Source: Bacteroidetes bacterium MED-G17
Lineage (GTDB): Bacteria; Bacteroidota; Bacteroidia; NS11-12g; UBA9320
Assembly (NCBI GenBank): GCA_002457675.1
Contig: NTKK01000005.1
Coordinates: forward strand, 1-64,000
Length of the DNA: 64,000 nt
Direction of reading: 5' to 3'
Shown: one piece after another, positions 10,011 through 16,172 of the stretch
Layout of the letters: every line of letters begins with the position of its first letter
Position numbering within the stretch: the first letter of the stretch is position 1
Program-made: the position numbers and the translations under genes
The notes under the pieces: model-generated
Database searches by the model: none
Seen by the model: only the letters and a program-made list of their open reading frames with translations
What the model was told of the DNA's origin: nothing

Positions 10011-10709
10011 TTATTGACTGTTTTGGGGATTGATATGTCGAAATTTTTGAAGATGATGGGTTAATAGGTCTATTTTTTCTTTTTCATTTTTTGTGCAAAC
10101 TGCGTGGTGAAACAAGTGCGATGCTTCCACTTGATTTTTGCCCCAACAACAGTATTTTGTACTGATGAAATCTACTTTTATTTTTCTTTTCATAACTAGT
10201 TGATTTAACAAAGTTTGATCTGCTAAAAATAATTTTGTTAAGCCAACTTTGTAGAGTAAATATATTTGACGTAATGGGCTAGGAAGTTTGATATACCCTT
10301 GCAAAATTCTAGATGTATCTTTAAATAATTTTCTGTTTACTTCATTGGATCTTATCCAAAGAAAACCGCCATTTAACTCATTTCTAGTGTCCTCTTGCAT
10401 GGCAGTAAATGAGGAATGCTCAGCGCGTTCTAGTAGAAATTGAAAAAGTCCCACTTCATTATAAATGTAAATATTAATATCTAAAATTAAACAATGCTTA
10501 CCCCTATTCTGCTCTAGAATTTGCACAACTTTTTTTGTTTTTAGCAATAATGAATAAAACCACCCTTCGTTGCCAAACGCTGTTTCTCCGTGCTTATCTT
10601 CAATTTTATGTGCATTGAAAACAAACTTGGAAAAACCCCCGTGAAATTTCGAAAAATTTCTGTGCAATCGCGCCACATTATCTGACCATATATAATGTGC
10701 TTGGATCAC
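10011..10709 (-). CDS. Putative nucleotide-sugar glycosyltransferase inserted in the CoA-transferase operon
   Basis: A 232-residue protein resembling nucleotide-diphospho-sugar transferases of the PF03407 type. ILDINIYIYN near residue 75 stands where the metal-binding DxD normally lies, but reads DIN. Further family-like pieces are LNGGFLWIRSN near residue 112, DQTLLNQL near residue 161 and LFHHAVCTKN near residue 200. No signal peptide or membrane helix is seen, so it would act on the cytoplasmic side. It starts with GTG in a GTGA overlap with the scoA stop and ends one base before scoB, so the three genes are translationally packed. An ordinary role in CoA transfer is implausible; it looks like a captured surface-glycan gene. 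Confidence 0.62.
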   Translation of the reverse strand: MIQAHYIWSDNVARLHRNFSKFHGGFSKFVFNAHKIEDKHGETAFGNEGWFYSLLLKTKKVVQILEQNRGKHCLILDINIYIYNEVGLFQFLLERAEHSSFTAMQEDTRNELNGGFLWIRSNEVNRKLFKDTSRILQGYIKLPSPLRQIYLLYKVGLTKLFLADQTLLNQLVMKRKIKVDFISTKYCCWGKNQVEASHLFHHAVCTKNEKEKIDLLTHHLQKFRHINPQNSQ

Positions 10710-11398
10710 TTTTTCGTCGTTCTTTGTTCAATACGTTTTTGGTAATCTCTGCCTTGAAAAATGCGATCTACAAAAATTCCAGGCGTATGAATTTCGTTTG
10801 GATTCAACTCTCCGGTTTCTACCAACTCTTCTACTTCAACGATAGTTATCTTGCCCGCCATGGCCATCATTGGATTAAAGTTTTTGGCGGTATCTTTATA
10901 CATTACATTCCCGTAAGTATCTCCTTTCCAAGCTTTTATCAATGCAAAATCTGATTCAAAAGCATGCTCAAGGAGGTACATCTTTCCATTAAATGCCCGT
11001 GTTTCCTTTCCCTCGGCTACCTCAGTACCATAACCTGCAGGTGTATAAAATGCTGGGATACCAGCTCCTGTAGCTCTGCATCTTTCTGCCAATGTACCTT
11101 GTGGCAACAATTCAACTTGGAGCTCTCCTGCCAACAATTGCCTTTCGAATTCTTGGTTTTCACCAACATAGCTTGCAATCATTTTTTTTACTTGTCTATT
11201 TTTCAACATCAAGCCTATTCCAAAATCATCTATGCCTGCATTGTTTGAAATACATGTAAGATTCTTGACATTTTTTTTAACTAGTGCTGCAATGCTATTT
11301 TCTGGGATACCGCACAAACCAAAACCACCCAACATGATGGTTTGACTATCCTTTATATCAAAGATTGCTTTCTCTGCGTTTGCAAAAACTTTATTCAT
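10706..11398 (-). CDS. scoA: 3-oxoacid CoA-transferase subunit A
   Basis: Alpha subunit (230 residues) of the CoA-transferase completed by the gene at 9357-10010. It shows the subunit A pattern: the glycine-rich GGFGLCGIPEN near residue 24, NNAGIDDFGIG near residue 53, PQGTLAERCRATGAGIPAFYTP near residue 99 and TYGNVMYKDTAKNFNP near residue 160. It leads the scoA-glycosyltransferase-scoB run. The divergent promoter on its upstream side now serves only a gene fragment. Confidence 0.93.
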   Translation of the reverse strand: MNKVFANAEKAIFDIKDSQTIMLGGFGLCGIPENSIAALVKKNVKNLTCISNNAGIDDFGIGLMLKNRQVKKMIASYVGENQEFERQLLAGELQVELLPQGTLAERCRATGAGIPAFYTPAGYGTEVAEGKETRAFNGKMYLLEHAFESDFALIKAWKGDTYGNVMYKDTAKNFNPMMAMAGKITIVEVEELVETGELNPNEIHTPGIFVDRIFQGRDYQKRIEQRTTKK

Positions 11399-11433: not shown

Positions 11434-11466
11434 TTTGGTATTTATTGCGATTCATCTTTATCTTTG
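11434..11466 (+). promoter_or_regulatory. Intact promoter in front of a broken gene
   Basis: TTTG (11434-11437), 21 bases, then TATCTTTG (11459-11466): an exact TTTG/TAnnTTTG promoter. The next in-frame start is TTG at 11473, six bases on. The earlier TTG at 11464 lies within the box and cannot be the start. The promoter still looks functional although the gene it drives is truncated. Confidence 0.65.
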
Positions 11467-11472
11467 GAGACC

Positions 11473-11865
11473 TTGTTTAAAATCCTAAGTATACCATTTT
11501 TGCTTCTGCCCTTCAATTTGCTTGGGCAAACGCTGGGTTTATTTGGAAATGAATGGGTAAATATAGACCGGAGCTACTATAAGTTTTATACCGCTGAAAA
11601 GGGTATTTATCAAATAACATATAGTGATTTAAAAGACGCTGGCATCCCAATTGACTCGATAAATCCTAAATCTTTACAATTGTTTCATAATGGCTTAGAG
11701 ATTCCGATTCATGTTGAGGGTGAAAAGGATAATTCCTTTGATACAGCAGATTTTATTTTGTTTTATGGAAACTACAATGATGGTAGTTTGGACAAACCAC
11801 TTTATCAAGATACTGCTCAACAAACAAACCCTTACCAAAGTTTATATACTGACTCAACGGCATAG
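11473..11865 (+). pseudogene. 5' fragment of a PorU-type T9SS sortase (C25 peptidase) gene
   Basis: The first 130 residues of a long C25-family protein of the type IX secretion sortase (PorU/PorU2) group. It has a signal peptide (LSIPFLLLPFNLLGQ), a YYKFYTAEKGIYQITYSDL strand region, INPKSLQLFHNG, and FDTADFILFYGNYNDGSLDK, which are typical of the N-terminal domain. The C25 catalytic domain and everything after it (hundreds of residues) are missing. The frame ends at a TAG directly beside unrelated glycosyltransferase sequence. The assignment rests on recalled family pattern, not a search. Confidence 0.6.
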
Positions 11866-12122
11866 GTGGTAAAGAATACTTTAATACGCATACAGGTTTT
11901 CCCATTGAAGAAAATGACCTTTTAGATTTTTTGAAAAAATCGTCTGAAATCATCGAGAATATCAATAAAAATTTCAATCACTACGATTCATTCTGTGAGA
12001 GAGCAACAAAACATATCTTAGAAAAATACCCGCTTCAAAATGAGGTGGATAAAATTTCGCAGGTTTTTTTAGAGTTTATTGACCAAGCAATTGCCCAACA
12101 CAATCACCAAAGCCAATCCTAA
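11853..12122 (+). pseudogene. 3' fragment of a family-4-like glycosyltransferase gene
   Basis: From about 11859 a different frame encodes IGGKEYFNTHTGF, then IEENDLLDFLKKS and a C-terminal helix with HILEKYP. This resembles the end of a GT4-type glycosyltransferase, from the nucleotide-sugar-binding segment to the last helix. The frame opens only at 11853, so the N-terminal two thirds are absent and no start codon is appropriate. Its last 47 bases overlap the end of the convergent fumarylacetoacetase gene, so its final ten or so residues may be read-through. Identification is tentative. Confidence 0.45.
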
Positions 12123-13302
12123 TTCCCTCCTTCTCAGCCCAAGCACGCATGCTTATAGTGTCCTTGTCTTCGATAAAAGTTCTTTTCTCGCCATTACTAA
12201 GTTCTATTGGCTCTTTACCGCCCCAGCTGAGTTCCAACATAGAACCAAATGAACTTTTGTCAGGCCCACTTATCGTGCCACTGGCCATAAGATCGCCCGC
12301 TTTAATATTGCAACCATTTACTGTATGATGCGCCAATTGTTGATAAATATTCCAATACAGATATTTGTGATTACTTCTTGAAATAATTTCTCTATTTCCA
12401 CCGTTTGGCGTTATGCCCACTTCTAAATGTATATCAAAACTTTTTTTTCCAGAATATTGAAGATAAGGAAGTACTTTATCTTGCTTTGGGCCTTGTGTTT
12501 TAAATGCATGCAAGGCCTCCATGGTAACTATCCACGGGGATACTGTACTGGCAAAATTTTTACCTAAAAAAGGACCTAATGGAACATATTCCCACTTCTG
12601 AATATCTCTCGCACTCCAATCATTAAATAATAACATACCAAAAATGTAATCCTCAGCTTCTTCTACCGAAACGGTTTCACCAAGCAATGTGTCTTTTCCA
12701 ACAACAAAAGCCATTTCCAATTCAAAATCCATTCTCTTGGAGGGTCCAAAAATTGGAGATTCCTGACCTGGGACTATTGTTTGACCATTAGGGCGAATAA
12801 TATTTGTTCCCGAAATAACAATTGAGCTTGACCTGCCGTGGTAACCAACTGGGATATGTTTCCAATTTGGCAACAATGGATTATCTGGCCTAAACATTTT
12901 TCCAACATTGGTAGCATGTTCTAAACTTGAATAAAAATCTGTATAATCTCCAATATTGATAGGCATTAGCATTTCTACTTCCGTTTGACGAACCAAATAT
13001 TTTGACTTATTTTTTGCTAAACAACTCCCCTCACTAGTCAATTGATCTTGCAAAAACCCCCGGAGAATAAGATGCTTTTCTTTGCCCAGTTGCATAAACC
13101 TATTCCATGTTTTTTGAGAAAAAACATATTTTTCATCTTCCGAAAATGGAAATTCTTTTTCTTGTGAAAAGTTTGAAACATCAATGATGTAATCACCAAT
13201 AGCGACACCTAACTTTTTTCTATTTGCATGAGAAAAAGTGCCAAAAGGCAAATTGTGAATCGAAAAATCACTGTTTGAAGAAATATCTAACCATGTTTTC
13301 AT
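12076..13302 (-). CDS. fahA: Fumarylacetoacetase
   Basis: Last enzyme of tyrosine/homogentisate degradation, hydrolysing fumarylacetoacetate to fumarate and acetoacetate; the acetoacetate could feed the CoA-transferase nearby. The 408-residue two-domain protein has YTDFYSSLEHATNVG near residue 120, YHGRSSSIVISG, RMDFELEMAFVVG with metal-ligand glutamates near residue 195, and FNDWSARDIQ near residue 227. I took the ATG at 13302 (MKTWLDISS) rather than one six codons upstream, which has no conserved residues. Downstream of RidA in the same direction. Confidence 0.94.
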   Translation of the reverse strand: MKTWLDISSNSDFSIHNLPFGTFSHANRKKLGVAIGDYIIDVSNFSQEKEFPFSEDEKYVFSQKTWNRFMQLGKEKHLILRGFLQDQLTSEGSCLAKNKSKYLVRQTEVEMLMPINIGDYTDFYSSLEHATNVGKMFRPDNPLLPNWKHIPVGYHGRSSSIVISGTNIIRPNGQTIVPGQESPIFGPSKRMDFELEMAFVVGKDTLLGETVSVEEAEDYIFGMLLFNDWSARDIQKWEYVPLGPFLGKNFASTVSPWIVTMEALHAFKTQGPKQDKVLPYLQYSGKKSFDIHLEVGITPNGGNREIISRSNHKYLYWNIYQQLAHHTVNGCNIKAGDLMASGTISGPDKSSFGSMLELSWGGKEPIELSNGEKRTFIEDKDTISMRAWAEKEGIRIGFGDCVGQLLGQ

Positions 13303-13329
13303 AGCAGCGAAAATAGGCATTTGGCTATA

Positions 13330-13743
13330 TCAAGGCAAAGCAATTACCTTAAGCTCAATAGCAATAGGAGTTGGCAGTTTATTTATTTCTACTGTTGTGC
13401 GAGTAGGTTGATTTTCTTTAAAATATTCAGCATAAATTTTATTATAGACTTTAAAGTCATCATCCATATTGGTGAGAAAAACAGTAACATCCACAATTTT
13501 ATCCCAAGAGCTTCCTGAGTCTTCTACTATAGTTCTTACATTCTGAAAAACAGCGTGGCACTGTTCTGCAATGTCATAGTCAATTATTTTCCCATCTTCG
13601 TCAAGATTAACTCCTGGAATCGCTTTACTATTTTTTTTCCTAGGACCAACGCCTGAAAGGAATAACAAGTCTCCAACACGACGGGCATGAGGATAAGCAC
13701 CTACTGGTTCAGGTGCTATATTGGATTCAAATTTTGAATTCAT
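13330..13743 (-). CDS. RidA family protein, possibly 2-aminomuconate deaminase-like
   Basis: A 137-residue RidA/YjgF-fold protein. Such proteins are trimers that deaminate reactive enamines or imines. It carries GAYPHARRVGDLLFLSGVGPR near residues 16-36 and VTVFLTNMDDDFKVYNKIYAE near residue 85. The YPHARR...GPR form resembles the branch annotated as 2-aminomuconate deaminase (kynurenine pathway), but no other kynurenine genes are in the window. Its ATG overlaps the stop of the upstream gene by one base (TAATG), and fahA follows after 27 bases. Confidence 0.8.
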   Translation of the reverse strand: MNSKFESNIAPEPVGAYPHARRVGDLLFLSGVGPRKKNSKAIPGVNLDEDGKIIDYDIAEQCHAVFQNVRTIVEDSGSSWDKIVDVTVFLTNMDDDFKVYNKIYAEYFKENQPTRTTVEINKLPTPIAIELKVIALP

Positions 13744-16172
13744 TATTCTTTAACAAACCTTGTAAAGGTAGTGTTGTTCTTTCCATAATTGAACTGTATA
13801 ACAAAGATCCCCTTAGGAAGCGCACTCACATCGACATGAGACACTTTTTCTCCTTGAGCAAATAATTTACCATTGAGTGAATAAATGGAATAACTGTTAA
13901 CTTCTTTCCCAAAGTATAGCATACTAGTTGTTGGATTTGGCCAAACTTTTATTTCACGCTTTTCATTATCCTTAACCGACACAACATTCTTTAGATCAGC
14001 AGTCCAAATACCTCTACCGTGGGTATAGATAAATAATTGACGATCAGAGTTTCTTAGCTGTAATTGATGAATTGCCACATTAGGGATTTGCTGTTCTTTT
14101 TCCCAAACTATTCCCCCATCTCTAGTGGTGTATAAGCCGAAATCAGTGGCAACATAAATCCAATTCGTATCTGCAGGATCTACTTCTACCCAATTTACAG
14201 GGAGAGATTCTGGCAGATTACCACTTATGTCTTTGTAGATAGGTTGTGGTGAGTCTGCATGATTTATTTTCCAAATTCTTCCTTGCGTAGAAATATTGCT
14301 GTAGGCTAAATAAACAGTACCTTTATTAAAAGGATTAACCTCAATACAAGCAACAAAAGAACCTCGAGCCTCTGGTGGTGATTTATCAAAAAGTCTAAAT
14401 TCTTTACCTGTTTCGGTAGTTGATGCATTATCAACTCGATACAAAATACTTGACGCTCCGCCTAGATATAGAGTTGGATTAACCTCATTTGAAAGACCTA
14501 TCGAGTATATATTTCCTGGGATATTAGCGGTTATTTTTTCAAAATTACTGCCTGCTTCGGTACTTCGCCAAACGCCTGACTTGGTAGGAACATAAATTTG
14601 ATCTCCGTCCAAAGGGTTTACTGTTAAAGGATTGATAAACCAAACTGGTTCACCTGACCAGGCAATATTCCCTGAAATGTATTGCCATCTTCCAGAATTC
14701 ACCGAAGATCTTCTGCTCAATGCCAAATTTTGTGATGATGCATAAACCTCTCCCGACTGTGGATTATAGGCGCAGAAAGCCCCATCTCCTCCCAAGATAC
14801 GAGTAAACAGACTACTTGAATTTTTTGAATACTGCGTGCCATTGTCTTGGGTTCCACCGATTACATCATCCCCTGAAGCCAAGTGTGCTCCTGCATAAAA
14901 TTGGGTAACATTAAAACCATTATTTAGTGTGCTGTAAGCATTGGGATTACTTTTTTGGTGTTTATAGAGTCCTCCATCATTGCCAATGATAAATGAATTA
15001 CCATTTGAAAAGAATTGTATTTCATGATAATCTGAATGGGTATTGGTCATATTAGACCAAGATTGACCACCGTTTCTAGAATATGCGGGCTCCACTCCAC
15101 CAACTACAACAAAGTTTGTATCGGTGGGGCTATTACCAAGCAATAAATCATACCAAGCTTGTGCAAAACTTGCACCTGTAGAAGTTTCAGGATTCGCTTT
15201 TTGTACCCATGTATTTCCTTGATCTGAGGATTTGTAAAACGCTTGGCAAGAAGTACCATTCGAGGCTGCGACGACTGCGTATATAACACGTTCGAAATTC
15301 TTATTTTTAGCAATATTAATTCTTCCTGAAAGGGTAGTTGCTAAGCCATTATTAACGGCCGTTGCCTTGTCTTCACCTTCCTTTAATTTAAAAACTCCAC
15401 TTCTTCGAACAGAAAATAAGATGGTTGAATCTTTAAATGTTTCAATATCATAAACATCATTTGAGGTCTTGTAAATCAATTCAAATGTTTTACCACCATC
15501 AGTAGTCTTAAACAACCCAGCATTATCTGTACCAACATATAAAGTATTTTCTTGGGTGAGTGAATGTTGAACTGACCAAATCTGCTCAAATTTACTATCC
15601 GCAGCAGTAGATTCAAGGGAATTAAAAGACTTACCACCATCTACAGATTTAAAAATACCCGCTCCGGGAACGCCTAAAGTTGACCCAATGCTTCCAGCCG
15701 AATTGCCCACAGATTCTCCAGTACCATAATAATAGATTTTTGAATCAAAAGGATTTTGGCACATAGTGGTTACTGCTAGACTTGAGCTAAAATCATTTAC
15801 CGCAGACCAAGACGAACCACCATTGTTTGATTCCCAAACACCGCCCGAAACCCCAGCTGCCAAAATATGATTTTCATTTGAATAATCTATGCAGATAGCT
15901 CTGGTTCTGCCGCCCACATTGCTCGGTCCAATCTCCCGCAAATTTAAAAAATTGGAAACTTTAGAGAATTTCACTTGTTGCTCATCATGCCAATTCTTTT
16001 GAAGACCATATGGAATTTTCCCACTTTCATCTGCTTTCATCTCCATGAATTGATCAAAATAGCCCATAGCCGATTTTTGTTCATCCTGCTCTTTTCTTTT
16101 TGAAAGAAAAAAAATGGACCCTAGGATTAATGCAATTGAGATAATTATAATTATATTTTTCGGCTTCATCAT
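13743..16172 (-). CDS. Type IX-secreted sortilin-like beta-propeller protein
   Basis: An 809-residue exported protein. An N-terminal hydrophobic segment (NIIIIISIALILGSIFFL) is followed by many repeats of the BNR/VPS10 propeller type, visible as SNNGGSSW, SVDGGKSF, TTDGGKTF, SSDQGNTW, SRNGGQSW and TRDGGIVW (Asp-box-like turns). The last 70 residues, starting VWPNPTTSMLYFG, form a type A T9SS sorting domain that directs outer-membrane passage and anchoring or release. Enzymatic function is not evident; such propellers occur in adhesins and glycan-binding proteins. RidA is translationally coupled downstream. Confidence 0.87.
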   Translation of the reverse strand: MMKPKNIIIIISIALILGSIFFLSKRKEQDEQKSAMGYFDQFMEMKADESGKIPYGLQKNWHDEQQVKFSKVSNFLNLREIGPSNVGGRTRAICIDYSNENHILAAGVSGGVWESNNGGSSWSAVNDFSSSLAVTTMCQNPFDSKIYYYGTGESVGNSAGSIGSTLGVPGAGIFKSVDGGKSFNSLESTAADSKFEQIWSVQHSLTQENTLYVGTDNAGLFKTTDGGKTFELIYKTSNDVYDIETFKDSTILFSVRRSGVFKLKEGEDKATAVNNGLATTLSGRINIAKNKNFERVIYAVVAASNGTSCQAFYKSSDQGNTWVQKANPETSTGASFAQAWYDLLLGNSPTDTNFVVVGGVEPAYSRNGGQSWSNMTNTHSDYHEIQFFSNGNSFIIGNDGGLYKHQKSNPNAYSTLNNGFNVTQFYAGAHLASGDDVIGGTQDNGTQYSKNSSSLFTRILGGDGAFCAYNPQSGEVYASSQNLALSRRSSVNSGRWQYISGNIAWSGEPVWFINPLTVNPLDGDQIYVPTKSGVWRSTEAGSNFEKITANIPGNIYSIGLSNEVNPTLYLGGASSILYRVDNASTTETGKEFRLFDKSPPEARGSFVACIEVNPFNKGTVYLAYSNISTQGRIWKINHADSPQPIYKDISGNLPESLPVNWVEVDPADTNWIYVATDFGLYTTRDGGIVWEKEQQIPNVAIHQLQLRNSDRQLFIYTHGRGIWTADLKNVVSVKDNEKREIKVWPNPTTSMLYFGKEVNSYSIYSLNGKLFAQGEKVSHVDVSALPKGIFVIQFNYGKNNTTFTRFVKE

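Follow-up and report, generated by a model that had tools for sequence, protein, structure and literature searches.

A probable deletion scar joins the start of porU2 to the end of a glycosyltransferase gene at a locus of apparently recurrent porU2 loss

We analysed a window of 64,000 nucleotides of contig C13 (166.7 kb), part of a 1.67-Mb, 99%-complete draft genome in 17 contigs (G000; probably a metagenome assembly), against a comparison set of 108 genomes of the order; for family f1, 38 genomes were searched (relatives are given G codes). Two truncated gene fragments lie next to each other on the plus strand at 11464–12122. To their left is the divergent gene for CoA-transferase subunit A (10706–11398, minus strand), which adjoins porU2 divergently in family genomes with both genes on one contig and marks the porU2 locus in the family; to their right is a fumarylacetoacetase-like gene (12076–13320, minus strand), which in relatives lies away from porU2. 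Among 80 CoA-transferase loci, adjacency of CoA-transferase A and porU2 was found only in members of family f1; in the genomes of family f2 examined, the two genes lie on separate contigs.

The gap between the CoA-transferase A and B genes is occupied here by a nucleotide-diphospho-sugar transferase-like gene (PF03407; 10011–10709, minus strand). In relatives it is empty, or carries a gene similar to the PF03407 gene (G013, G029 and G034), a sulfotransferase-like gene (G005) or a DUF3431-like gene (G017, with similar sequences in G009 and G014). With such varied content, the gap appears to be a hotspot at which glycan or surface genes are inserted.

The 5' fragment (11464–11864, plus strand) comprises the signal peptide and the first part of the N-terminal domain of PorU2. 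Its open frame has 133 codons (11464–11862), and the first stop, TAG at 11863–11865, falls at the join. In a profile search it matched PorU2 (NF052324) over profile positions 6–127 of 879 with 159.5 bits (E = 1.1e-46), under the curated cut-off of 450 bits because so little of the profile is covered, and it is 45–52% identical to the N-termini of intact PorU2 proteins from the orthologous locus. Against canonical PorU (NF033707), the same fragment scored far lower, at 48.5 bits (cut-off 420 bits). The initial annotation had called this piece PorU/PorU2-like; the piece is real and PorU2-like, but PorU itself can be dropped, the protein being the PorU2 paralogue. The profile search that scored the fragment also brought up a weak match to PorV2 (NF052325), and a scan of named genomes with the fragment found nothing.

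The fragment also holds the position beside CoA-transferase A that is orthologous in family f1. It is a remnant of a PorU2 family member and not a working member: about 130 of about 1650 amino acids are kept (about 8%), and the Peptidase C25 domain with its catalytic His and Cys is gone. That domain is present in the PorU2 of two intact relatives (702–719 bits against NF052324) and lies at about residues 407–753 of the intact protein, with H629 and C659 invariant in the intact set.

There is no ATG within the porU2 fragment, and the candidate start is the TTG at 11464; the porU2 start may thus also be damaged. A pattern scan, and comparison with the upstream regions of relatives, picked out a Bacteroidota-type promoter-like match, TTTG-N21-TATCTTTG (11434–11466, plus strand), that is possibly the remnant porU2 promoter. 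It had been described as a perfect promoter, and the pattern is indeed present; however, there are seven such matches in the window over both strands (about 1.15 expected per strand after shuffling), and the match is of doubtful function because its -7 box runs across the proposed TTG start. Among the intact relatives checked, most have a -7 box that begins about 23–48 nt upstream of the start.

These features bear on whether the remnant could still be expressed and serve some purpose, such as supplying a secreted piece of the PorU2 N-terminal domain about 110 residues long. Neither frame at the locus has an internal stop (133 and 86 codons), a promoter-like match is present, and the 5' end is kept in every located porU2 remnant. 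Nonetheless, a fragment lacking an ATG, with a -7 box lying across its start, is poorly equipped for such a role; the remnants in G015 and in G022 and G026 are shorter still, that of G015 carrying an internal stop, and the 5' ends may be kept merely because they adjoin the CoA-transferase promoter. We consider a useful remnant highly improbable. No RNA element was found.

The 3' fragment (11859–12122, plus strand) had been read as the C-terminal end, some 85 residues long, of a GT4-like glycosyltransferase in another frame, and this is what we find: about 86 codons (11859–12119) followed by a stop (12120–12122), out of frame with porU2. It is 29–36% identical to the C-terminal part of four glycosyltransferases and shares with them the invariant block G-x-GG-x-EYF. 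Outside the own genome, its matches among the 108 genomes of the order were to G030, G031, G032 and G060 only, in each case to the glycosyltransferase downstream of porU2 at the porU2 locus. The single-genome E-values (4.5e-5 to 6.3e-4) make this half weaker than the PorU2 half. A Pfam search with the tail alone gave no glycosyltransferase match above cut-off; the full-length homologue in G032 matches PF00534 (E = 1.3e-9). Given the modest similarity, orthology of the tail with the island glycosyltransferase is, on sequence grounds, probable rather than proven.

The change from one gene to the other, initially put at 11853–11865, can be placed at 11859–11865. Where PorU2 relatives read T-D-S-x-x-Y the window reads T-D-S-T-A-(TA), and the PorU2 alignment continues as T-A-(Y), so that PorU2 similarity can reach 11864; the glycosyltransferase alignment starts with an invariant G at 11859. 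The intervening GGCATA (11859–11864, plus strand) can be read from either parent and, judged from the alignments of relatives, is possibly a 6-bp microhomology at the join. Repeat-mediated deletion was rejected, since no long repeat was found at the join. A single known gene with a simple frameshift, which the initial annotation had raised against its own reading, was also looked at and excluded, as the fragments belong to two unrelated families.

As had been noted, neither gene is complete. Searching the own genome with an intact PorU2 returned only the remnant, and with an intact glycosyltransferase only the tail; the missing parts of both are absent from the 99%-complete genome. This weighs against a misassembly or strain chimera, in which the contig would join sequences that are neighbours in no cell, because a misjoin would normally leave the missing halves somewhere in the assembly. 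A draft of 17 contigs, probably assembled from a metagenome, could contain such an error, and strain mixture does affect the porU2 locus, two alleles of which coexist as contigs in G030. However, the contig that contains the join is 166.7 kb long and has no long repeat close to that point, the shared stretch of at most about 6 bp is too short for ordinary k-mer misjoins, and the same two locus partners are paired in other genomes. Misassembly is therefore unlikely.

Undeleted counterparts of the two parents, absent from the own genome, were found in relatives, which carry porU2 and then a co-directional glycosyltransferase on one stretch. Downstream of intact porU2 (~1650 codons), members of family f1 carry an island of glycosyltransferase-type genes that varies in content; in genus g10, and in some further genera, this island extends to an inositol-monophosphatase-like gene, and in G030 and G032 it is closed by a co-directional glycosyltransferase of the window-tail type. 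The undeleted arrangement of both parents is seen on contig C23 of G030, where a single nonsense codon interrupts porU2 close to the contig end, and on contig C248 of G032, which has only the 3' end of porU2. As the only homologues of the glycosyltransferase tail among the 108 genomes are at the porU2 locus, the two parents were probably co-directional on one stretch and were joined by deletion.

We read 11464–12122 as a gene-loss scar in which an internal deletion fused the start of porU2 to the end of the glycosyltransferase gene (probability about 0.83). A large deletion between two unrelated genes was among the initial proposals, and it agrees with the co-directional island in relatives and with other genomes that have independent deletions involving the same partners. 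That a single deletion made the join we infer from the two remnants, the missing halves and the undeleted arrangement in relatives.

A fumarylacetoacetase gene as right flank is not what relatives show, which calls for one or more additional rearrangements; the join might mark where a more complicated event ended. Monophosphatase-like and RND-like genes, which flank the island in several relatives, are found in the own genome on contig C11 (66859–67554, within L168), so that in this lineage a rearrangement has also split the porU2 locus. Both the displaced flank and the different gene after the scar would suit an inversion or translocation endpoint, with a glycosyltransferase tail from another locus brought beside a broken porU2; but the reciprocal halves are missing from the genome, and the tail has its only homologues in the 108 genomes at the porU2 locus itself. 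We give this account a slim chance.

Under the deletion reading, the ancestor would have had a divergent CoA-transferase A gene, porU2 and a glycosyltransferase island ending in a co-directional GT4-like gene. The deletion would have taken about 1,520 porU2 codons, all that lay between the two genes, and approximately the first three quarters of the last glycosyltransferase, leaving two remnants joined out of frame, perhaps at the GGCATA microhomology. A separate rearrangement must have relocated the right flank of the ancestor, whose inositol-monophosphatase-like and RND-like genes are now found on contig C11. The remnant would yield no functional sortase or glycosyltransferase, and the type IX system would carry on with canonical PorU and PorV. 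Deletion-scar pseudogenes are a general kind in reduced genomes; the present case resembles them in that two co-directional genes are cut short and fused in different frames, with the missing parts absent, but differs in that about eight lineages of the family have lost the same gene, all at one locus.

Remnants of porU2 with other breakpoints were found at the same locus in eight other genomes, and none was seen in two (G011 and G016). G031 has PorU2 residues 1–105 in frame with glycosyltransferase residues 251–355, and its monophosphatase gene is also internally deleted. In G060, PorU2 runs to residue 51 and is followed by glycosyltransferase residues 165–356; in G059 it runs to residue 214 and is followed by the monophosphatase gene. 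G022 and G026 have one common 46-residue remnant, G015 has a decayed 39-residue remnant with an internal stop, and in G027 about nine codons are left. On contig C16 of G030, PorU2 extends to residue 163 and is followed by broken glycosyltransferase pieces; compared with the near-identical undeleted contig C23, where porU2 is nearly whole apart from the nonsense codon and the glycosyltransferase is almost whole, 6,273 bp were removed with 0–1 bp of homology at the join.

The two G030 alleles (L037 on C16 and L038 on C23) are 96–100% identical, one with the 6.3-kb deletion, and their presence in one assembly suggests that porU2 loss may be segregating within the population. In G024 (L040, contig C201, about 1700–1830), a short run of A near residue 103 of porU2 seems to have lost two bases, which is possibly an early-stage inactivation or an assembly error. 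A porU2 frame break near the contig end in G001 might also be an assembly error.

Distinct breakpoints, and sister genomes that keep porU2, support several independent losses. With G030, G024 and G001 scored as retaining the gene, Fitch parsimony gave eight changes in porU2 presence, a value that is an estimate because the tree (CoA-transferase A and B and malate dehydrogenase sequences) is small and midpoint-rooted. Besides the loss described here, porU2 seems to have been lost from this place in relatives on about seven further occasions. The breakpoints of all eight distinct remnants are within the first 214 of about 1654 residues; under uniform breakpoints, the chance of such 5' clustering is 8e-8. 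The clustering would be explained by progressive erosion that stops at the border of the CoA-transferase promoter, and also by selection against secreted fragments of greater length; we tentatively favour erosion.

The initial annotation held that a working sortase must exist elsewhere if the system is active, and an intact one does. In the own genome (G000), canonical porU (1133 aa; NF033707, 1184.6 bits), porV and a porP-like gene are intact together on its contig C16, and there are 45 type A and 11 type B CTD cargo signals. With PorU and PorV intact and cargo signals remaining, the type IX system is probably active without PorU2 and, judging from these genes, probably still works in this genome. 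The idea that PorU2 loss amounts to loss of the type IX system was rejected, as PorU, PorV and cargo remain. Within the window, a sortilin/BNR-repeat protein (13743–16172, minus strand) has a type A sorting domain (TIGR04183, 35.4 bits), which fits a type IX system in use.

The paralogue of PorU2 that is intact here beside porV is the counterpart of Porphyromonas gingivalis PorU, which cleaves the cargo C-terminal domain and attaches the cargo to A-LPS delivered by PorZ (PMC8545088, PMC10202324). Intact PorU2 shares the peptidase domain of PorU, with a His and a Cys invariant in it, so it is plausible by analogy that it could carry out a similar reaction. In the literature searched, no paper naming PorU2 was found; the family name is a curated one (NF052324, 'putative type IX secretion system sortase PorU2').

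Cargo counts and genome sizes were also compared between genomes with and without PorU2, all p-values being uncorrected for phylogeny and multiple testing. Genomes without PorU2 have smaller estimated sizes (p = 0.001 in the family, p = 0.05 in g10), and within g10 their number of type A signals per Mb is lower (p = 0.0135) but that of type B signals is not (p = 1); type A counts reach at least about 113 in several larger genomes outside g10. The size and type A differences are a weak lead only. A role for PorU2 as the sortase of type B cargo is not supported, as no difference in type B density was seen within g10.

A more speculative view is that PorU2 and the adjacent variable glycan island form one exchangeable cassette, lost as a unit, in which PorU2 would serve as an additional sortase and attach part of the type A cargo to a surface glycan that is specific to the strain and produced by the adjacent genes. 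Where a locus could be read through to its flanks, PorU2 and the island are either both present or both reduced to remnants at most, and the lower type A density in g10, with no fall in type B, points the same way. However, one contiguous deletion alone explains the co-loss, and three genomes of the neighbouring family f2 have porU2 with no glycosyltransferases next to it; we think the cassette improbable.

The locus is thus a well-supported and ordinary gene-loss scar, of interest mainly because the loss recurs. PorU2 is apparently dispensable in family f1 and has been lost repeatedly. This natural series of PorU2 losses with PorU kept suggests that the type IX system can do without PorU2, and gives comparative work a handle on which cargo or surface glycan depends on it.
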